Positions 13,641-46,100 of a DNA stretch of 64,000 bases are shown here, one piece after another (positions within the stretch are counted from its first letter, which is position 1; each line of letters opens with the position of its first letter). The DNA comes from Dendrophyllia cribrosa (Eukaryota; Cnidaria; Anthozoa; Scleractinia; Dendrophylliidae): the NCBI GenBank assembly GCA_024195265.1, contig JAJLRJ010000013.1, forward strand, positions 3,739,575 to 3,803,574, in the 5' to 3' direction. Both the position numbers and the translations under genes were made by a program. A model generated the notes under the pieces. That model was not told where the DNA came from. It saw only the letters and a program-made list of their open reading frames with translations, and searched no databases.

Positions 13641-16600
13641 TTAAAGTCCATCATTGTCACCCAGCTGCGTTGTCCACCAATCACGGACGTCTCCTGCAAA
13701 CTCCTTCACTTCTGGAATACTTTTCTTTCGCGGTCTTGGTGCAGCCAGAGCATCAGGCAAACTTCTTCGTTTCGCTGACATAGAGAGCTCGTCCGGAAAC
13801 GTCACAGAACTTTTGCGAGCCGGAGAGATTTTACGCTCGGATTTCTTCTTGGTTGTAGGAGCAGAAAGTAAAATGGACGGTCCTTTCGAAGGAGATGAGA
13901 TTGAAAAATCGTCACGGTCATCCTCACTGCTATCGTGTTCACGCGTCTCACGCTCGGCTTCAACGTCACGCTCCGGCTCCTCATTGGCTGAATTTTCCAC
14001 GCTTTCCACGCTCGACGCACCTGGACTCTTGTTGTCTGAGAAACCGAATCCACCAGCCAATGCGATACCACCTTGCTCCAAATGTCGGATCCATTCCCGC
14101 TCGGCGCGTTTTCGACGCAGATTAATGAACCAATCACGAATCGTTTGAATAGCCACTTCTTCTTCAATTTGATACTCCAATTCTTCGCGCTCTAGCAATT
14201 CTTCCAGCTGCAAACTACGGCTGATATCGACCGAACGGTACGCAAGTACGCCGATAACATCATGAAAGGAGACTTCGCTGCCGTTTCGGAGCTTTTCGAT
14301 TTCGAAGCACATGTGTTTGAACAACAGCGAGCCACTGTCCACTTCTAAGCGACCTTTGAGCAAGCGAAGCACAAGCTTAGCTTGTCTTACTGTTAAAACT
14401 CCTTTACGGTACTTGTCCACTAAGTTCCAAGTGAGCTGAAAGTCTCTGAGATCGGTGTTACTAATCAGCGAGTCTTCATCGCTGGAGTAAAAGAGCGAGA
14501 AATTTTCGATGATTACAGCGATGAAAAGGTTCAAGAATACAAACGTTACGATGACATAAAATGAAATGAAGTATACAAGCGCTGCGGCCGCGTTACCGCA
14601 GTCCGTTTCCCAAAAATTGGGCGTGGAATCGTTCTCAGTGCAGTACGGTTTGGACAACATACAATCGTGCATAATCTTGTTCCAGTCCTCCCCAGTTGTG
14701 ATGCGGAAGAGCAGAATAATAGCGTTGAAGCTGGTTTTGAAGTTAGCGTGACGGTTCAAGGCTTCGCCATACTTCACAGTTCCGAACAAGATCACGCCTG
14801 CTAAGGAATAGCTGATCATGACAAGTAACAACACCACTATGATGAAGAAACTCTTAAGCAATGACATCACAACTGTTAACATCAACATCTTCAGCATGTC
14901 GTGTTTACCAGAGAGCGTAAGAAAACGAAACAAAATGATAACCATTCCAAACACTGTGGTGCCGGTATAGGGTGCGCCAGTATCTTTTAAAGAAAAATTC
15001 AAAGTCACCCAGAGAACTCCAAGACTCGTCAACAGCAAGTCAAACCGGTTTCGCCGGCTCTGCCAGTATCCGCGGAACGAGAATGCGATGATTTTCAACA
15101 CCATATCAACAACGAACAGCAGCGAGCACGCGACAGCAGTACTTGTCAGCCCGTCACGCAATCGCAGGTTATCCGCTGAAGTCCACTGGACGATCATGAG
15201 CGTCACGCAATCAACGACAACCAGAAAAATAACGATGCGTTTGTATATTTTAGATTGCGTCGCATCGAATAAAAAAGATCGGATTCCCTCGCTGTCGGGT
15301 CTACGGGCAAGATGGAGAGGCTGTGCAAGACGAAGACGTTTCTTGAGGTCTTGCCAACGGCGCTGATCAACTGTGAGTAACGCAATTCCCTTCTTCTCGT
15401 TGAAGTTTATGACAATCACGCCCACGAATAGAGTCAAGCCGATCATACTTCCCAAAAGCACGTAGATGTGGACATAGATACTGTACTCTGGAGCCACTAC
15501 ACTTTGAATGACATCTCGTACTTCCAACCAACCCTCCAACGATAGCACTTCGAACAAGGCTAGAAAAGCGTGCAACACGTTATCGAAGTCAAAGTTTCTT
15601 GGGTTTTTCCACACGCGCGGGACCGTTATCTTCGAGGTGCCTTTCAAGTCACGAAGCTCCTTCGGAGGTGCTATGTTGATCTGGAATGTTCCTTTGCACA
15701 GCGCTTTGTCGTTGCCGATTGTTTGATCGTTGCAGCTCCCAAACTTGTGAGAGAATACTTGGACTCCATAGCTGGCGAAAATAAACATGAGCATAAACTG
15801 GAGCGCACTGACTTTGAGGATTTCTTTATAGCCGCCAACAAGCTCTAGGATCACTTTTTTCATTTTAGGCACCAAAGTGATAATACGCAAAGGACGAAGG
15901 CACCTCAACACCATTAACACCTGAGCCCCTGAGCGAGCGGGTATGGGGTATGGTTGCCAAGTAACATAGGCGAGCGCCACGAAGTATATGAACACATCCA
16001 GGCAACCACCAAAGTTTTGGATCACGGCATTGGGCGTAAAGACTAAACCATTGGCAAGAATACGGATGCCAAGCTCCAAACTCATGGCAACAACAAAAAT
16101 GTATTCGACTACTTCTAGAGACGACGAACTGCCAAATGTGCGCTCGGTGGGAGTTTCAAACATCATAGCTATACAGGAAATGAGGGTGACAAAGATCATA
16201 ATCCATTCTAAATACGTCTGTGAAGCTATACACTTGTGAAGCCGCTCCATGGTGATGATATGATTACGTGACGCGCGTTCTCTATGCCCGGGTGGAATTG
16301 TGTAACGCGCGTTTATCATACTCTGCAGAACTTGTCTCAGCCACGAGTCACGCTGCAGAGAGAAAAGAGGCTGGTCGAAATAGGGATGATTTTCACGTAA
16401 TTTCTCTTCTTGAGCTTCTCTTTTTCTCTGGGCTTCTTCCCGTTTGACTCTCACCCACTGAATATCAAAATCTTTGCCGATATTACTGTCATCTTGAGTT
16501 ATCTGCGAATGGAGTCCCGTGGTTTGGCTAGCAATTCTCATGACTTGCTTGACCCCACCTTGAGCAGCTGGCTTCGGTGATTGCGGCTGGCGACTTCGGA

Positions 16601-18947
16601 AACGCCTTGAGGCAGATCGGAAAACCGAAGGAGCAGCGGCTGTCTGCTTGTTTCCGGCGACGGCGCCTCTCGGGGAAACTTCGGTTGGCGAAAGCAGCGC
16701 ATAGCTCCTCTGACGATTTGAGTCGTTGATAAGTGCAGTGATACTCGACTGTTTACGGACGAACTTCGAGAGCTTATCCACTTCGGATATTGTTGAATTT
16801 AAGAGCTTCACGGGAACAACAGTCCGCCTTCTTCTTAACGGTGAATTATCGCCTATGCGAAGTCTTGGATCATCTCCCAATGGGAGCTCCAAGCCCGGGC
16901 TATCGATAAATTTCTTCATAAAACTGTCACGAATCTTCGGCGTGGAGAAATCCGAATTCGTTTTAATCCGACTCATTCTGACCAATCGTGGGTCGTCACG
17001 GAAACGCTCAAAGACACGAAGCCGCCTCGGGAGTGCCTCGGTGTAGTCTCGGGATTCTCCGCCCATTTTCTTTTGTTTCATGATTTTGACTTCTTCATCA
17101 AGTTCTAAATTGTCCAGGATGACAGCTACGAATACACTCATGATAATCAGCGAAGAAAATAAATGGACAGCTAAGATGACAATCACAACAAGAGCTTTCA
17201 GGATCGGATGATTAGTTTGATGAACTAAGTCATCCAAAATTTCAACCCATCCTTCCTGGGTTATAATCTGGAACATAGATTGAACAGAACGCATGAAGGT
17301 ACCAAAATTTTTCGGGTTTAAAGTCAGAAAAAACTGCATGCTTATCACTGACGAAACCATCACAAACAGGAGGGTGAACACGATCGCGCTTCCCAGCTTC
17401 TTTCCCGTGCCAAAGATTTTCTCGGAGAATTCTTGAAGTGTTGGTACTGCTCCAACCAAGCGGATTACCCTCATCACGTTAAAAACTGCTAAGAAAACGG
17501 CTTTTTCGGAAATCAGAATTGGCAGCGCAAACACGGTACTTCCAACAGCTAGTACAAATTCTGTTAGCTGCATTCGGCTAACAAGGTAGGGGCGAAATCC
17601 CATGCAAGAAATCTTCAGGAGAACTTCCAAGTCGAAGACTATAGTGAAGCCAAATTGGGCATATCTACGCCAGCTGTAGGGAAAGATTGCCTGCATTAGA
17701 GCGTCTGCTAAAACGAAGAACCACATTGTGTACTTGAAGTAAACTGAGTGAACGATTTGCCGAACACGTAACGGTGCATGGCCCTTCGCAGCTTCATGAT
17801 CAACTGAGATGAGATGCCAACCTGTTCCACCGTCTTTGATGACTTGAGATGCGAGCCGAGCCGAAGTCCGCTTCGACGATTTCCGAGTATACATGTACAG
17901 GCTCCGAATATCGGCGAAAGTTTCCGAGACAACAGCGATGAAAACATTCTTCACCAGCCACGCGACGAAGAAAATGAGCAACACAAAATAAACAATGACA
18001 AGCGCGTGAGATCGAAAATCCGTCATTCGGTACATAACAAGCACCCATCCTTCTTGTGTGGAGCTTTCGTACACGGTTAGAAGACTCGATAGAACATTTC
18101 CGAAATAATCTTTATCGGTACGATCACCCATGTTGTTTCGGAAATTAACGTGAACACAGTTGAATCCGCGGGGACAATTATATCCTCCCTCGCCAGTAAC
18201 ATTGTTGCATCGATGGTCTGTCAGTAACATATCATTGTAGGTGACGTTATTTAAATCAGTGTTGTTTTTAATGCAGTAAAAGTTTTTACGCCCGAATAAT
18301 TGAACACCCATGATCGACCCGAACGCCATAAAATACAACAAGAACAGTGTCACGGCCCAGATTTGTCGCTTACATCGGCGAGCGACCGATTTCGGCAAGT
18401 TTATTGTGATCAGCACGTTAAAGAACCTTATGATTATAAGTGCTCTCGGAGCTCTTGGAATTGAGAATCCAACGTACTTGTGTATGTGTTCTTTATCGTA
18501 GACGAAAGCACCAGATATTTCCACAATTTGCAAAACGATTGATAGCAAAATCAGAAACAACATACTCGCGTTAAAAATACATTGTGGTCGCTTCAAGTAT
18601 GCCTTCTGTTTTTTCCACAATCCCCACATGTTGACTTGAGCTATCATTTCAGTCGTAAAAACAACTGCGACCACAATGTCAACTACTAGAGTTAGGTATG
18701 TTAGCCCATGCGATGTTAATGTCTCTGGTGAATTCATCGCGGTTGATATCAAACTGACAACAGCACATACTTGGACGAGTCGTTGAAACCATCTTGTCTT
18801 AACCCACCATATTCGCGATATGTCTTCGTTTTCTTCATCATCTGATCCCGCCGATTCCGCATATTGTGCTTGGCGAAGCGGCCATAGAGTTGTTGACGAA
18901 GAGTGGTGGTCAGATTCAATAACAACAGACTGTCCTCTTGCCTCCAT
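13641..18947 (-). CDS. NALCN: NALCN-type four-domain sodium leak channel, intronless, EEEE filter
   Basis: Pore-forming alpha subunit of the NALCN family, which carries resting cation leak with UNC79, UNC80 and FAM155 partners. One uninterrupted 1768-aa frame (human about 1738) holds four six-helix repeats: about 50-350, 400-620, 910-1190 and 1235-1490. Filter glutamates read in order: I in TQEGWV (E299), II in TQEGWV (E565), III in SLEGWLEVRDVI (E1138), IV in TGEDWNKIMHDCM (E1420). Vertebrate NALCN has Lys in repeat III (EEKE); here it is Glu. NALCN-specific blocks include LRENHPYFD, LLTVDQRRWQDLK, FWQSRRNRFDLL-like WQSRRNRFDLL, VKYGEALNRHANF, the C-terminal SVDISRSLQLEELL and a terminal VRDWWTTQL. 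The first ATG is at 18947; an in-frame TAG lies just upstream. No intron, frameshift or stop interrupts it, which is unusual since animal NALCN genes are usually multi-exon, so a retained retrocopy is likely. It is divergent from the MAT gene. Confidence 0.95.
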   Translation of the reverse strand: MEARGQSVVIESDHHSSSTTLWPLRQAQYAESAGSDDEENEDISRIWWVKTRWFQRLVQVCAVVSLISTAMNSPETLTSHGLTYLTLVVDIVVAVVFTTEMIAQVNMWGLWKKQKAYLKRPQCIFNASMLFLILLSIVLQIVEISGAFVYDKEHIHKYVGFSIPRAPRALIIIRFFNVLITINLPKSVARRCKRQIWAVTLFLLYFMAFGSIMGVQLFGRKNFYCIKNNTDLNNVTYNDMLLTDHRCNNVTGEGGYNCPRGFNCVHVNFRNNMGDRTDKDYFGNVLSSLLTVYESSTQEGWVLVMYRMTDFRSHALVIVYFVLLIFFVAWLVKNVFIAVVSETFADIRSLYMYTRKSSKRTSARLASQVIKDGGTGWHLISVDHEAAKGHAPLRVRQIVHSVYFKYTMWFFVLADALMQAIFPYSWRRYAQFGFTIVFDLEVLLKISCMGFRPYLVSRMQLTEFVLAVGSTVFALPILISEKAVFLAVFNVMRVIRLVGAVPTLQEFSEKIFGTGKKLGSAIVFTLLFVMVSSVISMQFFLTLNPKNFGTFMRSVQSMFQIITQEGWVEILDDLVHQTNHPILKALVVIVILAVHLFSSLIIMSVFVAVILDNLELDEEVKIMKQKKMGGESRDYTEALPRRLRVFERFRDDPRLVRMSRIKTNSDFSTPKIRDSFMKKFIDSPGLELPLGDDPRLRIGDNSPLRRRRTVVPVKLLNSTISEVDKLSKFVRKQSSITALINDSNRQRSYALLSPTEVSPRGAVAGNKQTAAAPSVFRSASRRFRSRQPQSPKPAAQGGVKQVMRIASQTTGLHSQITQDDSNIGKDFDIQWVRVKREEAQRKREAQEEKLRENHPYFDQPLFSLQRDSWLRQVLQSMINARYTIPPGHRERASRNHIITMERLHKCIASQTYLEWIMIFVTLISCIAMMFETPTERTFGSSSSLEVVEYIFVVAMSLELGIRILANGLVFTPNAVIQNFGGCLDVFIYFVALAYVTWQPYPIPARSGAQVLMVLRCLRPLRIITLVPKMKKVILELVGGYKEILKVSALQFMLMFIFASYGVQVFSHKFGSCNDQTIGNDKALCKGTFQINIAPPKELRDLKGTSKITVPRVWKNPRNFDFDNVLHAFLALFEVLSLEGWLEVRDVIQSVVAPEYSIYVHIYVLLGSMIGLTLFVGVIVINFNEKKGIALLTVDQRRWQDLKKRLRLAQPLHLARRPDSEGIRSFLFDATQSKIYKRIVIFLVVVDCVTLMIVQWTSADNLRLRDGLTSTAVACSLLFVVDMVLKIIAFSFRGYWQSRRNRFDLLLTSLGVLWVTLNFSLKDTGAPYTGTTVFGMVIILFRFLTLSGKHDMLKMLMLTVVMSLLKSFFIIVVLLLVMISYSLAGVILFGTVKYGEALNRHANFKTSFNAIILLFRITTGEDWNKIMHDCMLSKPYCTENDSTPNFWETDCGNAAAALVYFISFYVIVTFVFLNLFIAVIIENFSLFYSSDEDSLISNTDLRDFQLTWNLVDKYRKGVLTVRQAKLVLRLLKGRLEVDSGSLLFKHMCFEIEKLRNGSEVSFHDVIGVLAYRSVDISRSLQLEELLEREELEYQIEEEVAIQTIRDWFINLRRKRAEREWIRHLEQGGIALAGGFGFSDNKSPGASSVESVENSANEEPERDVEAERETREHDSSEDDRDDFSISSPSKGPSILLSAPTTKKKSERKISPARKSSVTFPDELSMSAKRRSLPDALAAPRPRKKSIPEVKEFAGDVRDWWTTQLGDNDGL

Positions 18948-19402
18948 TTTGTTCAACTAACTAATTTTTCAGCGGAAATAGTTCTGCTTGTATATTTTAT
19001 ACGGGAAATTCCGAGCATAGCCGACTATTCCCGAAGGCGTACCGAATTCTCCGACTGCTATGCGAGACTATTATTTTTTGTGACCGATACCTGAAGTCAG
19101 CCACTGGGGATTAATCCGTGGTTAAAAACTCTTCAAATATTAATTAAATTCCACCAGCTTTTCATTTCAGCTGCTCTTTTCATGCAAATTAATGTTTTAT
19201 CACGCAAAACGATAAGGTACGATTTTTGGCGACCTTATATCGATTTATACTTTTGTTTTGTTACTGTTGCACCACCTGAGCTCTTGTTTGCTCAGCCAGT
19301 TAATAGTTTTGCACGCGAGGAATTGATTATTTAGCTGCATTTTCAACTGTTTTGGAGCCAACAATACATAAATCTATTTCGAATACATTTTCTGAAGCCG
19401 AA
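18948..19402. promoter_or_regulatory. Shared divergent promoter region between NALCN and MAT
   Basis: 455 bp separate the two start codons, which point away from each other, so both promoters must lie here unless 5'UTR introns reach further. The sequence is A/T-rich with no repeat recognised and no clear TATA box. Co-regulation is inference from geometry only. Confidence 0.5.
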
Positions 19403-20662
19403 ATGTGGAGTTCTAGATCAAAAATCTTCGTTCCTTTGCTTACGACAAAGTTAGCTCTTCGACCGGTGGTTTCAGGATCTCTTCGCTGCTATGTCACGGG
19501 ACCTTACAGTGCAAGCGATCGAAGCAAGTTCCTTTTTACTTCAGAATCCGTTTGCCCGGGCCATACAGATAAAATGTGCGATCAGATCTCCGATGCGATT
19601 TTAGATGCACATTTGGATCAAGACCCGCACGCAAAAGTTGCTTGCGAGGCTGCGAGCAAAACTGGAATGATCATGGCGTTTGGAGAAATCACCTCCGCAG
19701 CGAGAGTGGATTATCAAACTGTGATTCGAAACACTGTCAAAGAAATCGGCTATGATGATTCCTCGAAAGGCTTTGATTACAAAACATGCAGTGTTTTGCT
19801 GTCTATTGAGGAGCAAGTCGCTGAGATAGCCAAGAGTGTGCATTTGGACAAGAAAGAGTTGGAGATTGGAGCTGGTGACCAGGGGTTAATGTTTGGTTAT
19901 GCAACTAATGAAACTGAAGAGCTGATGCCCCTGACAACCGTGTTGTCGCACAAGCTGACTAAAAAACTGGCAGACTGTAGAGTAGATGGAACTTTGCCGT
20001 GGCTGAGACCAGACGGGAAAACCCAAGTTACCGTGGAGTACAGTTTGATAGATGGCGCTTGTATACCACAGAGGGTCCACACCATTTTGATCTCAAATCA
20101 GCATGCGGAAGGAATGCCAGTGGAGGAAATCCGACACCATTTTAAAGAGACAATCATAAAAGGTGCAATCCCTGAAAAATACCTTGATGAACAAACAGTT
20201 TATCATCTGCTACCTTCAGGGCAATTTGTTTTTGGGGGTCCCGTGGGTGACGCCGGCCTTACTGGTCGCAAAATCATTGTGGACACATATGGGGGGTGGG
20301 GTGCACATGGGGGTGGGGCATTCTCAGGAAAAGATGCAACAAAAGTTGATAGGTCGGCAAGTTATGCCTGCAGGTGGATTGCAAAATCATTAGTTGCAGC
20401 AGGGCTTTGTAAGCGTGTTTTAGTCCAAGTAGCTTATGCAATAGGCATTGCTGAGCCATTGTCAGTCGCTGTGTTCAGCTATGGGAGCAGTGAAATGTCT
20501 GATGACGAGCTTTTAAGGATCATTCAGAAGAATTTTGATCTCAGACCAGGAGCAATCATTAGGGATCTTGATTTGCGTAAACCCATTTTCAAAGCCACAA
20601 GTGTCTTTGGTCATTTTAAACCTGGTTTTCCATGGGAAGTGCCCAAAAAATTGGAGTTTTGA
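19403..20662 (+). CDS. S-adenosylmethionine synthetase with putative mitochondrial presequence, intronless
   Basis: Methionine adenosyltransferase: makes S-adenosylmethionine from methionine and ATP. The single 419-aa frame (human MAT2A 395) is uninterrupted and holds the family signatures [13 protein letters not shown] (156-168), the [17 protein letters not shown] block and GGGAFSGKD (303-311), and ends WEVPKKLEF like animal MATs. Two features differ. The first in-frame ATG at 19403 gives an N-terminus of about 40 residues ([16 protein letters not shown]...) with five Arg/Lys, many Ser/Thr/Leu and no acidic residue before D39, plus an R-C-Y site at 28-30, as in mitochondrial targeting peptides. 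The usual GEGHPDK signature reads CPGHTDK (51-57): His and Asp/Lys are kept, the Glu and Pro are changed. The lack of introns suggests a retrogene. Mitochondrial location is inferred; catalytic competence is untested. Confidence 0.93.
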
Positions 20663-23395
20663 TCATAATATCATCATTAATTTTGACAAGTATATCACCT
20701 TCATTTTTATACGGGTGACAAAATAATGGTCTTTCAAAAAACTTGGGTCTCACAACAGTTTAGTCAAATTTCAAGGGTTTCACAGTCTGTTTTTGAGCAT
20801 TTCTCTTTCTCGAAGTCTCAATGTGTTTGTGAAGCCGTCTTGAAATCTCAGTCTTGCATTTTTAAAAGTGCAAAAGTAAGTCTTGGACTTCCAGAGAAAA
20901 ATGCTGGTCAATGCTAGTATTAACTGCGGTCAAACAAGAGAAATTTGCAAAAGTTAAGCAAAGTACTTAAAAGTGAAGGTTGTCATTTTCACTGTTTAAA
21001 GTTTAATACATTGCCGATACACTGTCAATTTAACAAACGTTTGAACGTTTACCAAAAAAGTTCTAAGTGTTAAAAACTGTGAACTGCAGAATTGTCGGCA
21101 CCCCTTGCCAACATAATTTTGATCAGGCGCAAAGAGTTTTGGTCAGTTTTCAATGGAAAAAAGCTCATCATTTTGAGAAAAATCAAAAGAAAGTAACATC
21201 AACTGATTTTTTTAATACATTAATATTAAATAAAATCCCACTAAATGACACGAAAAACGCCTCGGACGTTTGACCACGGTGAAATGTTAGTATCGCCATC
21301 TAGCAAAGTCTTGAATTAACTAACCTCATACCCAGGGGTTTCTTTGTTTTTAAAATGAGGGGTTGTGCATAGTCGGCTTAAATACTCCAAAAATACTGGG
21401 GTATTTTATTGTGCAAAACAAGATGAAATTTTTTTTGTTTTGTTTGAATAATGGCCTCAGATTACCAGAAAACAAACATGGCTACCAACTGCTGGAAAGA
21501 ACCTTTGAAAATGCCATTTCATCGTGTGTCACGCCCCGGGGAGGGGGGGTTACTCCCATATATGAGCTATATAGGTATGTGCCGCTGTGAAGGATATGGT
21601 TTTCAGGCAGTTTAGTCTGGGAAAGGGTATAGTAATCAGTGATTTTTGGTCTAGAATAAGGTATCATTTTCCGCGAAACTGATCAGTTGCATGAATATAA
21701 TTTAGTCTTGACAAGGTTTACTGGCAAATGGCATCTAACAATCGGTACGGCGGGCAGTATGGTATTTTTACTGACCCCTGTTAACTAATAACTGTGACAG
21801 TGATCTGATAGTGAATGAGTTTCTGGAAAATAGCGAGTCTGGAATAGGTCTAGGATAGGGTAGGGTTTTTTGGTGTTTAGTCTAGAATAGGGTTGCAAAA
21901 TGCAGCTAAAATGGTCTAGTATAGGTTAAGGGTCTCAGAGTCCCAGCAGCATACCCCCACCATACCGGTTGTGAATACCGCGTGGAATGAAATTTTCACA
22001 GAAGTTTAATTTTGCGGATTGCCGATTTTTTGCATTTCATGGGAACACGTTTTGGGGATCTCATTTTTTCACAGATGGTACTTGTATTTAACAAGAAGGA
22101 AAATATTAATATAATGTTGTCTTGTTTATTTTACTACAAATTTTCTATACTCATGTTGGCGAGTTTTCGATTAAAATTCAGCGGCTGCGGTAAGGTGTGA
22201 TTTCGTATGCCATCTGGGCCAGGCAAAACACATAAAATACTAGTACTAAATTGAAATTCATTGATCTAAATAAATTTTCGTGGATTTTTTTCCCTGGAGT
22301 TTATTTTCGTGGGATCTTATTTTCGCGGATCATTAGAAATTAAATCCTGGGAAACTTTCATGCCACGCGGTAAGCCATTTTCCCTTTTTTATTATCGACT
22401 TACTTATAAGTATGCGAGAAACAATGCACTGGCATGTCATGATCATAAACATAAATTATTTTTGCATTTTAAGTACTATAATAATAATTTATTGATTGAA
22501 TCATCCAAATTATTTTAATTACTTGGGGTAATATCAAGGATCAAACCATAATCTTCTTAGTTCATGTAGTTGGATTATAAGTTTAAAATAAAACTACGTT
22601 TTAAAGGCAGTAAGTAAACAAAGGATTGTAGAGAGTCGAGACATTAACTGTAGAATTTTTGTGGTCAGGCAGGCAGCCAAAAATATAATTTATAGCAATT
22701 TTTTTTATTTGAGGCCCTTTGTTATTTGAAACACTTTCGAGACAAAACATTTTGGTGCATATGTCAAGCTTTTGTATTGCAAAGTGTTCACTTGTTTATG
22801 GTGTGTGCTTCAAATACAAGATCAGTGGAGTTTGGGAGAAGTGGAAAATTCTATAAATCTGGATGATAGGCCTTGATTAATCAACATCTTTTGAAGCCCT
22901 TGTCAAAAAAAGACAGATGCTTGAAAAAAAAAGAAGAAGGAAACAAGGGGACATAAATTTTGTGTTGTGGTGTGGGTATTGTTCAGTGTCTTTTGAATCT
23001 TTTGTTTTACGTCATTTGGTGATCACACCATCCGCAACACCAAGAAACTACCACCATTTTTTTTGATAAAATAAAGATATATGTGATGAGAAGTTTATTT
23101 GAAAGTCACTAAGGGTGGGTCTTATATTTTTGATGCCTTCTTTTAAAAGTATGTGGTAGCTTACCCAATGACAACTCATAAAAACAAAAAAGTAGATAAA
23201 TTATAGTATACATGAACTGGTGTAAAACACCATTAATCAAAAAGTAAAATATATTTTTATGATACAAAGTGAGTGACATGAAACATGCAATTTGTCAGCA
23301 GCTTAATATCTACAAATATATTACATTGTGTCTCCCAGATTTTTAAATCATAATCTCATTTTATTCAAAGTTTTTTTACTCTCATATATACATGT
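20663..23395. other. Gap between MAT and the next repeat
   Basis: MAT 3' flank; a possible AATAAA is at about 21226. Apart from the element at 21530-21965 no structure was recognised, and frames are short and unconvincing. Confidence 0.4.
21530..21965. mobile_element. Poly-G-ended element with TCTAGAATAGGGT repeats
   Basis: It starts with a CCCCGGGGAGGGGGGG run followed by TACTCCCATATATGAGCTAT and ends with CATACCCCCACC. The interior repeats TCTAGAATAGGGT-like units. Related in style to 40100-40434. It lies between the MAT gene and RB1CC1. Confidence 0.5.
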
Positions 23396-40132: not shown

Positions 40133-43100
40133 CTCCCATATAAAAATGACGGGGTGCTCGTCGTACCTTTTAGGGGTCAAAATTTGTACATTGGTACATG
40201 TACCTCTTAGGGTGCTAAAATTCAAAATGACCCCGTTGGAATTATCGCGGTACCTTTTAGGGTATTAAGCCCAGAATATGACATGTGTTGTTTAAGAATT
40301 GGTACCTCATAGGGGTTAAAATTCATTTAAGCCACGCCAATCAAACAACATTCTGGTACCTTTTAGGGTGCTTATCGAAAATTTCCGATGAGCACCCCCG
40401 TCATTGTTATATGGGAGTCCCCCCCCCCCCCGGACTTTTTCTATTGCAAAGCGTTTCCTTCTTCTTCTCCTTCCCACCACCTTGGAAACATACAATGTAG
40501 TTTTCTGTTTTCTGTTTTCCTGCCTTTCATAGACACCTTCCCTATCCCCCCCCTCCTATACACCCTTTCCCCTAAGAGAATGACTTTGTTGATTTCCTTT
40601 AGGCTAGAGATCATTGAACAAGTGAACGAGGCACCGCGCATTTACATCTTAGCAGTAGCTGAAGTGGTCAGGAGGAGGTCATTTTCTTCACAGTTTCAGA
40701 AGGTAGGACATTGTTTACCTCAAGGAATTAAAGAGTCAGAATAGTGATAATAACAAAGAACTGTTAAGAGCCAGAACTGCGAAGTTGACTATATAAGATT
40801 CTCACAAATTATAGTCATCTATAGAGTAACAAGGATGGCGCAGTGAAGAGAACACTCACCTCCCACCAATGTGGCCCGGGTTCGAATCTTAACCCTTTAA
40901 CTCCCAAGAGTGCCAAATAACAAAATTTAAGAAAAATCTCAAATTTCATTTTCTAAAATATTGAAAAACAAATGGTACCATGCAAAAGTACTGCAGAAGA
41001 GGTTTCATTTGAATGGTCACACCACAGGATTTCGTCTACAGATTCAAAAGTTAGAACTACACAACATGTCTCCATAATTGACTCTGGGAGTGAAAGGGTT
41101 AAAGGCAATCCCATATGTTGGTTGACTTTGTTCTTGGTTGTTGTCCTTGCTTCAGAGGAGTTTTTCTCTTGGTAATCCGGTTTTTCTCCCTCCACAAAAA
41201 CCAACATTTCCATAGTTCAATTTGATCTGGAAGCAACGAAAGTAAGAGCCACATTCTGGATTCTACTGAAATTCCTATTTGTTTATTTATTTATTTTATT
41301 ATCATTTATTCTGTATTTGAAAATACGGCATTTGACTAAACCTTTTTTTCTTCTGTATAGTGGGCAAGTAAGTTATGCGAGACCTCAATCCAGGCAAGAT
41401 CAGAGGAAACTACAAGGAGAGAAGAATTTGAATTACAGTTTGGTAATGTATATGGTGCTTCACTTACAAAAGATGTGTTGTATTTTCACAGTCCTACTCT
41501 CTATGCTTGTGTATCACTTACAGTGTGACGTGCCTTGCCATGAGCACTCAACAAACCTTTTTTACAAGTTAGCCAATCAGAGAGCGCAAATTCAATTTAC
41601 GGCATGCCTCTTCATAAGGTTGAACACGATGGAATGTAATCTTGCAGCATTGTGTTTATTACAGGAGTGTAAAGTTAGATACAAAATATGAAGATTTTAT
41701 TCACATGATTGCTTCACACGTATCCACAGTATGAATCAAAGTAATTATAAGAATTAGCTGGTGAATTTTTTTTGTGTAAAAAACATTTGTTGGGTGCTCA
41801 TGGTAAGGCATGTCACATTCATTCATTCATTCATTCATTCATTCATTCATTCATTCATTCATTCATTCATTCATTCATTCATTCATTCATTCATTCATTC
41901 ATTCATTCATTCATTCATTCATTCATTCATTCATTCATTCATTCATTCATTCATTCATTCATTCATTCATTCATTCATTCATTCATTCTTTATTTGCCAT
42001 ATATACAACATGTTACAGAGCAAGATGAAAATAATAAAGGATTAGAGAAAAAAGTGAATGGCGAGGAGACCTGAAAGAAACCACGAGGCTTATAATGAGT
42101 CAGGTTTCTTCACTTAAAAATAAACTAGTCTTAATATAATAATTACAATATGGGCTTATGATAGCTTATTTAGTGTAGAATCGTCAACTAAAGATAATAT
42201 AATTAAACATTTTTGTTTTCTTTTTTAGGCCAGCATTTTCTGCAGAATCTGTTTTGCGGATTTGGTGACAGACCCTCCAAATTTCTAGAAAAGCCACCCA
42301 GACCCTTTGATGAACAGCTGCCAATCATAACAGATAAAGATCTTCAAGAACTGCAGGAACAGATCCCAGAATTAGCCACCTACCTTGAGTCTAGCTCTAT
42401 TAATATCAGCATGAAAGACGAAACTGGAAAAACAAGTTTTCTACAACTGGAAGAACTTGAAAATCTTGGCACTATTTCTCAGTTGCCCATGAATTTAGGA
42501 CGCAGAACCAGTGAAAGTGTGATAGACAAGAAATTGACACCATTTGCTGAAATGTCTTCTTCTGAGAAGGCCACGCAAATGAGCATGGACGCTTCCACGC
42601 AAGTTGAATGGACATGCGAAGAAGAAAAATCTGCTGTATCAGAACAACAAGGAAATCAGTTTTATTCTACTCTAGGCATACCAGTTGTTAGTGAACTGAC
42701 AAACATGATAAGTGAAAATGTTACAGAAGAGACCACTGAGTGTTTTGATGATGATAAATCTCATGAAAGGAAGAAAAGCAGTAGTGATAGTGCTTCAGAA
42801 AAAAGCTCAGCACTTGATGATAGCGACCTTGTTTTTAGATCAGCGCATGAAGATTATGTGACTGTTTTTGATGCGGATTTGGCCGTCAATCTTGAAGAGA
42901 ATATCCAGCCGGTAGGGGTGCTTAAGGAAGACTGTACAGCACTTCTTGATGACGCTAGTCAGACAACAACTCTTGCAAGTTCTGGCTCACAAAGTTTGAC
43001 GGATCACAGCACTCAGACAGAGCGTAGTTCCGACAGCAATTTGCCAATTCAGGTGTCAGGTTCGCAAGAATCTTGTGAGGAAGTGGCTTTGGATTCACAA

Positions 43101-46100
43101 CACATTGAAAGAACTGATCAAACCACAGTGAAAGAAATGGTTGAAAGATTGGAACAGTTAGAAGAGAGGTTAAGAACAACTCAAGGATCTTTGGAAGGTG
43201 CTAATTCTCGGAAAGAGAAACTTTGGGATGCAAATGTGAAAGTTAGAGGTTGTTTTAAGGAAGAGTTGGTGGTAATTCGTCAGAGTCTTAATGAATGTAG
43301 GCAAGTGATCGTAGACTTGGAATCAAAGATGAAGGAGGATGTTATGGTAACTGTTGCTAATGTGCAGCAAAAAGGAGATCTGTTTAGGGAAACAATAAAC
43401 GAAAATACAACTAAAAGAACTAGGGAAGAGTTTGAAAAAGAGCTTGCGCAGTTGAATTCACAATTTGAGCAAGAGAAAAATGCATTCTTAGAAGTTAAAT
43501 CTAAACTTGAGTTTGAAAAAAGTAAAATTCTGGAAGAGATAAAACAGTTACAGGCTGATAAAGAAACAAGCGAGTCTTTGCATAAAGAGGAAACTGAAAA
43601 GTTGAGTTTGATCATGAGTGAGTACAAAGCAAAAATCGAGGAACATGAAGGAGCAACCCAGAAGGTTCAAGAGAGCAAATCACGGTATGAGGAAGATCAA
43701 CAGATACGATTCAATGCTATAATGATGAAATTGAAACGAGAGAAGGAGAATGCTTTGTTTCAAGCACACGAAAAGATTAAGGAGCTAACGCAGTGTGTAG
43801 AGCAACAAGAGAAAAATATTAAATCACTGATGATCGAGAAAGAGAAGGTGACAGGAGAATTTAAACAAGCACGTGGTGCTTTCTGTTTGCGGGAACAAGA
43901 ATTTTTGGCAGGTAAGCACAATAATAAATCTGTGTGAAGTGTACATCCTTAACCCTTTCACTTCTAGAGTCAGTAGTTCTAGCTTTAAGTAATGCTCCAC
44001 ATAAGAACTATAGCAAACTTCATTGTTCTGCAGCATTGGCTCTTTCCCACATAAAATATCTTTGGTTTCAAGAATAGAGGAGGAGCTGATGGTCCATAAT
44101 TATATTTCAGTATAAAAATAAAGAAAATCCATTTGCGTCAATTAAATTTTAGGAAATGTTAGTGCTTAACCAATCAGAATAGCAGAAGACAATAGCTAAT
44201 AATTTTGCTTCTTTGATGAAGTTCCCCAAATAGAATATCTTAAAACTTGCATGTTGTGCGATTGGGTTCATAGAGGTGTTTGCATTATAGAGGTGTTTGC
44301 ATTATAGAGGTGTTTGCATTATAGAGGTGTTTGCATTATAGAGGTGTTCGCATTATAGAAGTGCCACACTGAGGTGTCCATATTATAGGTGTCTGCATTA
44401 TAGACGCGCCCAGGGCTGTGCTCTAGCAGTGCCCAGGGGCCTTAGGCTCCCTCCTTTATCTTTGGGCAACAAGAAAAATGCACTTTTGCATAAAACTTAA
44501 GTGCCGGGCACCCCAGATTTCAGAGTTGAGAGCCTTTGGGCTACCTGTGATTCATCTAAGAGCACAGCCTTGGTGCCGTATCCAGGAGGTGTCCGCATTA
44601 TAAAGGTATCCACATTATGTACTTAGGTGTCTGTGTTATAGAGGTGTCCACATTATATACTTTAGGGTGTCTGTATTATAGAGGTGTCCACATTACAGAG
44701 GTGTCCGCCTTATAAGGGTGATCTTATTAAAGAGGTGCCTGTCTTATGGAGGTGTCCATATTATAGACTGAGGCGTCTGCCTTATATAGGTGTCCATGTT
44801 ATGGAAGGGTCTGTAAGGATAGGTTTGACTGTAGTTCTAATAAATTTTGTAAGATTTATTTTTTACTGAACTTCAGCTCTGCAAGAAAAAGAATCTAAGA
44901 TTCAAGAATGTGAAATCCTACTGCAAAACAAACAGGCAGAATTCTTAGAACAGCTCGAACAAGAGAAAGCATCAACACTGGCACTGCTTCAAATTGAACG
45001 GCAAATGTGGGAAGCAGAGAGAAAGAAGCAGTTAGCAGCCAAAGATCAAGAGACTGAGTGAGTGAGCTGTTTTATAGTTAAATGTCAATCACTTGGAAGT
45101 GACTATCCCGTCCCGTCCCGTCCCGTCCCGTCCCGTCCCGTCCCGTCCCGTCCCGTCCCGTCCCGCCCCGTCCCGTCCCGTCCCGCCCCGCCCCGCCCCG
45201 TCCCGCCCCGCCCCGCCCCGCCCCGCCCCGCCCCGCCTCGCCCCGACCCGACCCGTCCCGTCCACCAGGAGAGGTGGTCACTCACAGGAGAAAGTCACTA
45301 ATGAATGATTCTGTGGCCTGAAGTTTTGTAATGCAGTTCTGACATTCTACTCATTGTGACCATTCAGTTGTTAGACTTTACCCTTTTTTGCAGGCGTGAC
45401 ACTGATGTTGTTTTGGAGGAAGACTATCAACAAAGAAATCAACTCCTAGAAGAGGTGAGGATTTATTATAGTTTCATGTTGTCAGCTTTGTGTGGTCGAG
45501 TGAATCAGATTCTAGTCTTATGGGTCTAAGTTTGAGTCAAGGCCTTTATCACACAGAGGCCATGTTGACTTCCCGGAGAATAAAATGCTTTGTTTTTGCC
45601 CGCCCAGCCTCGCAGTGAAAAAGTTGAAAATGAGGTTGGGCGGGCAAAATCTTTTGTTTTTATACAAAATGGCAGGGTGTGATAAAGGCCTATACTGTGT
45701 GGGACATTTGGCGAGAAACTAAAATTGCAGATACCAAATAAATACTGATTTAATTTTTATCTTTCACAGGAAAATAGAAAGCTAACTGAAAAGTTGTCAG
45801 TACAAACTGGTATGTTGGAGTAATGTGCAGAAGTAATATTGCAGCATTGTCCCCTAAACTTTACTAATACTAACCCAGCTGTATTATGGGGATGGTGTTG
45901 GAGGGAGGAGAGGGTGGGAAGTTGGACACAGGGGGTAGGAGGGAGGGGGGGGGGGGAGAGATTGGTGGAGCAAAATGCCTAAGAGAGGGGAGGGTCTGAA
46001 GGTGTGGAGAATCTTTTATTTAAAGCGTTTTGTATTCATTAGTTGACCCATTGATGTGGTTATTTATTACTTTTATTCCTTATCAGGCGAGAGCAGTTCT

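Follow-up and report, generated by a model that had tools for sequence, protein, structure and literature searches.

A conserved, leader-bearing S-adenosylmethionine synthetase paralogue of corals and sea anemones as a probable mitochondrial enzyme

Mitochondrial S-adenosylmethionine (SAM) in animals is described as obtained mainly through the carrier SLC25A26, and methylation reactions in mitochondria depend on SAM in the matrix, that of tRNA in C. elegans being an example on that paper's reading (PMC11019128, available part). Lipoate synthesis in yeast needs matrix SAM, and in yeast without the carrier an engineered mitochondrial form of Sam1 restored growth and, though not fully to the wild-type level, lipoylation, which indicates that an S-adenosylmethionine synthetase (MAT) placed in the matrix can work (PMC10154411, available part). 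The mitochondria of mammalian hepatocytes reportedly contain MAT alpha1, which was proposed to make SAM on site, although the authors were unable to measure matrix SAM consistently (PMC8799735, available part). The original prediction for the gene described here started from the view that animal mitochondria import SAM and do not make it; import stands as the main route, but in the light of the hepatocyte report the statement is no longer absolute.

Here we describe a MAT gene of the stony coral Dendrophyllia cribrosa whose product is probably imported into mitochondria and makes SAM in the matrix, a reading based on comparison of sequences. The gene lies in a stretch of 64,000 nucleotides (hereafter the window; G000:C5:3739575-3803574 of a 627-Mb genome in 22 contigs), and it departs in a different way from each of the systems just mentioned. 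Hepatocyte MAT alpha1 is likewise a mitochondrial MAT proposed as a local source of SAM, but it is the ordinary MAT alpha1, present in several compartments under PIN1/CK2 control (PMC8799735, available part), whereas the coral protein is a separate paralogue with a presequence-like leader of its own. SLC25A26 and yeast Sam5 serve the same need, matrix SAM, but by transport and not by synthesis. Engineered mitochondrial Sam1 of yeast is also a MAT with a matrix address (PMC10154411, available part), but an artificial one, while the coral gene would be the natural case. Metazoan enzymes of the MAT2A/MAT1A type (PDB 8axz) resemble the window protein in their three domains, length and catalytic residues; the window gene differs from them in an acid-poor leader with an Arg site, in the replacement of GEGHPDK and in having no introns. 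Its parts are as follows.

19403..20662, forward strand: single-exon MAT gene with an N-terminal leader, 419 aa (ORF, Pfam, PDB match)
19403..19492, forward strand: presumed mitochondrial presequence, residues 1-30, with R28-C29-Y30 followed by V31 at the predicted cut site (alignment, motif count, site rule in the available part of PMC7723863)
19493..19528, forward strand: 12-residue linker ahead of the enzyme core (ORF translation, alignment)
19529..20659, forward strand: MAT catalytic core (Pfam N, M and C domains; best PDB match)
19553..19573, forward strand: altered signature CPGHTDK, residues 51-57, which reads GEGHPDK in ordinary MATs (ORF translation, motif count)

The open reading frame is complete, encodes 419 aa and has no internal stops. 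Stop codons lie in frame upstream of 19403 with no in-frame ATG between them and that position, the ATG at 19403 has G at -3, and the Met that follows residue 1 is residue 58, already within the enzyme part; 19403 is therefore the natural start for this exon, and any functional product starting in the exon would include the leader. A further exon upstream of 19403 is possible. S-adenosylmethionine synthetase N, M and C domains occupy residues 42-138, 154-275 and 278-412, with Pfam scores of 136.0, 146.6 and 207 bits that all exceed the curated cut-offs of 33.1, 29 and 25. The best PDB match is MAT isoform type-2 (8axz; 612.8 bits, residues 26-419), and among solved structures the isoforms type-2 and type-1 of MAT rank highest, with alignments that begin at about residue 25-42 and run to 417-419. 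The core is identical to Xenopus laevis MAT at 260 of 377 residues. By sequence the window protein is thus a member of the MAT family, and its membership stands despite CPGHTDK, since H, D and K are kept and the signature stretch does not define the family. The MAT with an N-terminal leader that had been predicted is accordingly present: the leader measures 42 residues and is free of acidic residues over the first 38, which hold five K/R and no D/E.

Relatives were sought among 5.8 billion proteins with the single sequence and with a 17-member profile, about 8000 candidates with the most shared words being scored in each search and the best 120 of them considered. Both searches placed the same 16 clusters on top, 73-91% identical to the window protein in the single-sequence search, one of them (P0012) from Nematostella vectensis; among the matches listed in the profile search, the last of these scores 813 bits and the protein that follows it 732. 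With the window protein they form a clade (100/98 in a 41-row tree of the enzyme part alone; a second, 36-row tree gives SH-aLRT 97). In the 41-row tree this clade stands apart from the canonical MATs of Nematostella, Actinia, Acropora, Montipora, Pocillopora, Stylophora and Dendronephthya, from bilaterian MATs, from three EukProt rows and from the canonical MAT of the same coral genome, which groups with Pocillopora and Stylophora (95/87). Because Nematostella is represented in the clade while the coral's own canonical MAT sits among those of stony corals, the gene is most simply read from the tree as at least as old as the split between sea anemones and stony corals. Trees computed without an outgroup neither reject nor demonstrate a grouping of all cnidarian rows (p-AU 0.252) or of the leader clade with the hexacorallian canonical rows (p-AU 0.249), and the tests would fit a split of the paralogues within Cnidaria or an earlier one.

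The principal evidence on location comes from the leader and its conservation. A mitochondrial presequence is an Arg-rich, acid-poor N-terminus of 20-60 residues, which MPP and Icp55 process according to R-2 and R-3 rules (PMC7723863, available part). In all 17 clade members the leader ends in an Arg motif, R-x(1,2)-[VSC]-[TSA]-[GA]-[PAL], that fits processing sites of these kinds (PMC7723863, available part). The clade leaders run for 22-45 residues to the site, five of them trimmed, and carry 4-9 K/R each. They are free of acidic residues as far as the Arg site in 14 of the 17 members; P0002, P0005, P0006, P0015 and P0016 extend further upstream and were begun at the last Met that still leaves 33 residues or more, and with these records untrimmed the count is 12 of 17 (acidic residues precede the site in 3/17 leaders after trimming and in 5/17 before it). 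Across 16 comparisons with the window protein, leaders are 29-71% identical and enzyme parts 75-93%, and this faster drift of the leader is the behaviour expected of a presequence. Outside the clade, 146 MATs with the start motif were compared (6 of 152 had none and were left out); 45 of these have an N-terminal extension of at least 20 residues, and not one of the 45 is acid-free. The Arg motif recurs in a single one of the 146, the bird protein P0080, with an extension of 160 residues, by chance or otherwise. Long basic extensions are present in three entries from birds and mammals, but these contain acids too and resemble translated 5' leader.

Considered alone, the leader of the window protein exceeds chance only moderately. 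Acid-free 30-mers are rare in the enzyme part (128 of 5917 across the clade). When every ATG in the window was scanned, that of this leader included, 526 open ATG-started 30-mers were found, 98 of them acid-free; 34 were acid-free with at least five K/R, and three of those had R-x-[YFC] within the last six residues. By chance, then, a single leader of this composition is no rarity in the window. A presequence is also expected to form a positively charged amphiphilic helix. The amphipathic moment of the leader is 0.27, a value equalled or exceeded by 82% of 500 shuffles, and the corresponding share is 9% or higher for 15 of the 17 leaders in the clade, the exceptions being P0015 (0%) and P0006 (6%). 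Since the window leader shows no special amphipathicity, the argument for mitochondrial targeting is one from composition and conservation, and taken together with the relatives the sequence comparison makes a strong case. The mitochondrial-type leader with an R-x-Y site that had been proposed is thereby strengthened by its conservation among relatives, as regards both the Arg motif and the scarcity of acids, and gains nothing from amphipathicity.

This weak amphipathicity would also suit a leader that is translated but does not target, in which case the protein would be an additional cytosolic (or nuclear) MAT, with a tail that serves some other purpose or no purpose at all. Tails of 34 residues do occur at the N-termini of the canonical coral MATs P0116, P0117 and P0119, but those combine charges of both signs and include 5-6 acidic residues, as against the 14 (untrimmed, 12) acid-free leaders among the 17 of the clade, and rapid drift around one conserved Arg site is how a presequence behaves. 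We regard such a non-targeting leader as unlikely, and favour import.

The signature raises a separate question, that of what the enzyme does. CPGHTDK does replace GEGHPDK at residues 51-57, as first noted. The string occurs in four of the 17 clade members, the window protein included, the rest of the clade being variable: CRGHSDK, NEGHSDK and GEGHPDK occur twice each, and there are seven single variants, so that 15 of 17 depart from GEGHPDK. Among the 152 other MATs, the signature reads GEGHPDK in 150, GMGHPDK in one and an unrelated string in one. The two clade members that retain GEGHPDK, P0015 and P0017, are the earliest branches inside the clade, and since they branch first the change is most simply interpreted as later drift. 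The changed positions, which we take to correspond to human E27 and P30 beside the catalytic His and Asp, are occupied by P, V or R and by T, A or S, respectively, in different members. As they adjoin the active site, the kinetics may differ.

Less likely still than a non-targeting leader is a mitochondrial protein in which SAM synthesis has been changed or lost (for example a regulatory subunit, or an enzyme with a different substrate), with the signature change as its mark. The positions equivalent to human E27 and P30 are indeed replaced in the window protein and in its eight closest relatives, but the altered positions vary from member to member, P0015 and P0017 still have GEGHPDK, and the catalytic His, Asp and Lys of the signature are unchanged. 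The equivalents of what we take to be the human catalytic set (E23, H29, D31, K32, E57, E70 and Q113, and further K181, D258, R264, K265, K285, K289 and D291) are invariant in a 30-row MAT alignment and in the 17-row clade alignment. GAGDQGxxxGY and GGG[ASC]FSxK[DE], presumably motifs of the MAT family, are kept in 17/17 clade members, as they are in 152/152 other MATs. An AlphaFold model built from the 17-row alignment was poor (pLDDT 53.6, pTM 0.51) and was set aside. In these alignments nothing points to a lost or a new activity, and the suggestion that the signature marks a changed activity finds no support, the signature being variable within the clade and the catalytic residues invariant in the aligned rows. 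We therefore retain SAM synthesis as the probable activity of the imported protein.

The same genome contains, among the matches listed, at least one other full MAT, a canonical gene on contig C12 with seven coding exons, GT-AG splice sites, 411 aa and the signature GEGHPDK; it has no such leader, its N-terminal tail containing acidic residues, and it is identical to the window protein at 269 of 402 aligned residues. Its six introns (phases 1, 1, 1, 0, 0 and 2) map to window residues 56, 82, 123, 254, 315 and 387, and the window gene is uninterrupted at every one of these positions. As all six canonical introns are missing, retroposition of a spliced transcript of a MAT gene is the best explanation for the window gene, in agreement with the retrogene that had been suggested from the lack of introns. 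From the stop codon to position 22924 there is no run of nine or more A that could be a poly-A remnant, as would be expected in an old copy. The contigs that carry P0003, P0008, P0010 and P0015 are 140 kb to 1.6 Mb long, a hint that these four, if the contigs are genomic and were called without introns, are intronless as well. A recent processed pseudogene or an assembly artefact, in favour of which the absence of introns can be cited, is scarcely credible. The ORF is complete and its active site intact, other samples contain relatives that are up to 91% identical, Nematostella has a member, and the clade is a separate one; a recent pseudogene is rejected.

The contig that carries the window also has a fragment at G000:C5:10787065-10787272, which contains a piece of exon 6 of the canonical MAT, the remnant of an intron end and a premature stop. 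It was considered as a second retrocopy (C5:10787132) and rejected on account of these features, which identify it by sequence as a partial genomic duplication.

Three further features were recorded in the window.

13641-18947, reverse strand: NALCN-type sodium leak channel, full length, about 1768 codons in a single unbroken ORF (PDB, Pfam)
18948..19402, no strand: gap of 455 bp that separates the starts of the MAT and NALCN-like genes, which lie head to head (ORF positions)
42213-43937, forward strand: 574-codon open frame whose product, by eye, is acidic and resembles a coiled coil

The best PDB matches of the channel-like ORF are to NALCN (1449.5 bits), and it has four Ion_trans stretches, with filter glutamates that read E/E/E/E by eye (STQEGW, TQEGW, SLEGW, TGEDW). 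Like the MAT gene it is intronless, and the two lie head to head, 455 bp apart; the gap is a possible shared promoter. The 574-codon frame matched no Pfam family at an E value of 0.001.

Whether a matrix enzyme would replace the import of SAM or add to it depends on the carrier. A search of the genome with an approximate human SLC25A26 sequence gave one outstanding match, on contig C4, 51% identical over residues 10-87, the other 11 listed matches being at most 34% identical. A tblastn comparison of the C4 region with a permissive cut-off yielded eight collinear pieces that cover residues 12-210 and 234-268 and are 40-77% identical each.

G000:C4:139546-144589: SLC25A26-like SAM carrier gene, at least eight exon pieces (tblastn)

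As far as these exon pieces show, the SAM carrier appears to be present, and on that evidence its loss, or replacement by the MAT, is rejected. The enzyme would accordingly add to the import of SAM and not replace it, and local synthesis would be partly redundant with the carrier.

We propose the following course of events. A spliced MAT transcript would have been retroposed no later than in the common ancestor of sea anemones and stony corals, and the copy would have gained an N-terminal mitochondrial presequence and been maintained by selection since. The precursor would enter mitochondria through TOM/TIM23, MPP would cleave it after R-x, and one more residue would be trimmed afterwards. Once mature, the protein would fold and assemble in the matrix as a normal MAT oligomer. 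There it would use methionine and ATP to make SAM, alongside the import through SLC25A26.

Among the matches listed in the literature searched (titles and abstract openings, mostly from non-subscription journals), none describes a cnidarian MAT with a presequence or a retrogene derived from a MAT. We rate the finding as one of an ordinary enzyme in an unusual place, in the form of a conserved separate gene. Coral sulphur metabolism is itself of interest: two MATs of A. millepora, which have not been matched to the window gene, rise under low salinity (PMC5557254, available part). The synthesis of DMSP is a conceivable sink for the SAM; the D. cribrosa genome has 11 matches to PF00891, which may be DSYB or ASMT-type enzymes.

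Beyond this one coral we favour, with somewhat more reserve, the wider view that a dedicated mitochondrial SAM synthase with a presequence exists in hexacorals beside the carrier, the mitochondria of corals and anemones thus making their own methyl donor. Such an enzyme may feed a matrix-specific demand for methyl groups or for radical-SAM reactions that other animals meet by import alone. If this is true, corals and anemones would have, in a conserved separate MAT with its own presequence, a natural second route to mitochondrial SAM.
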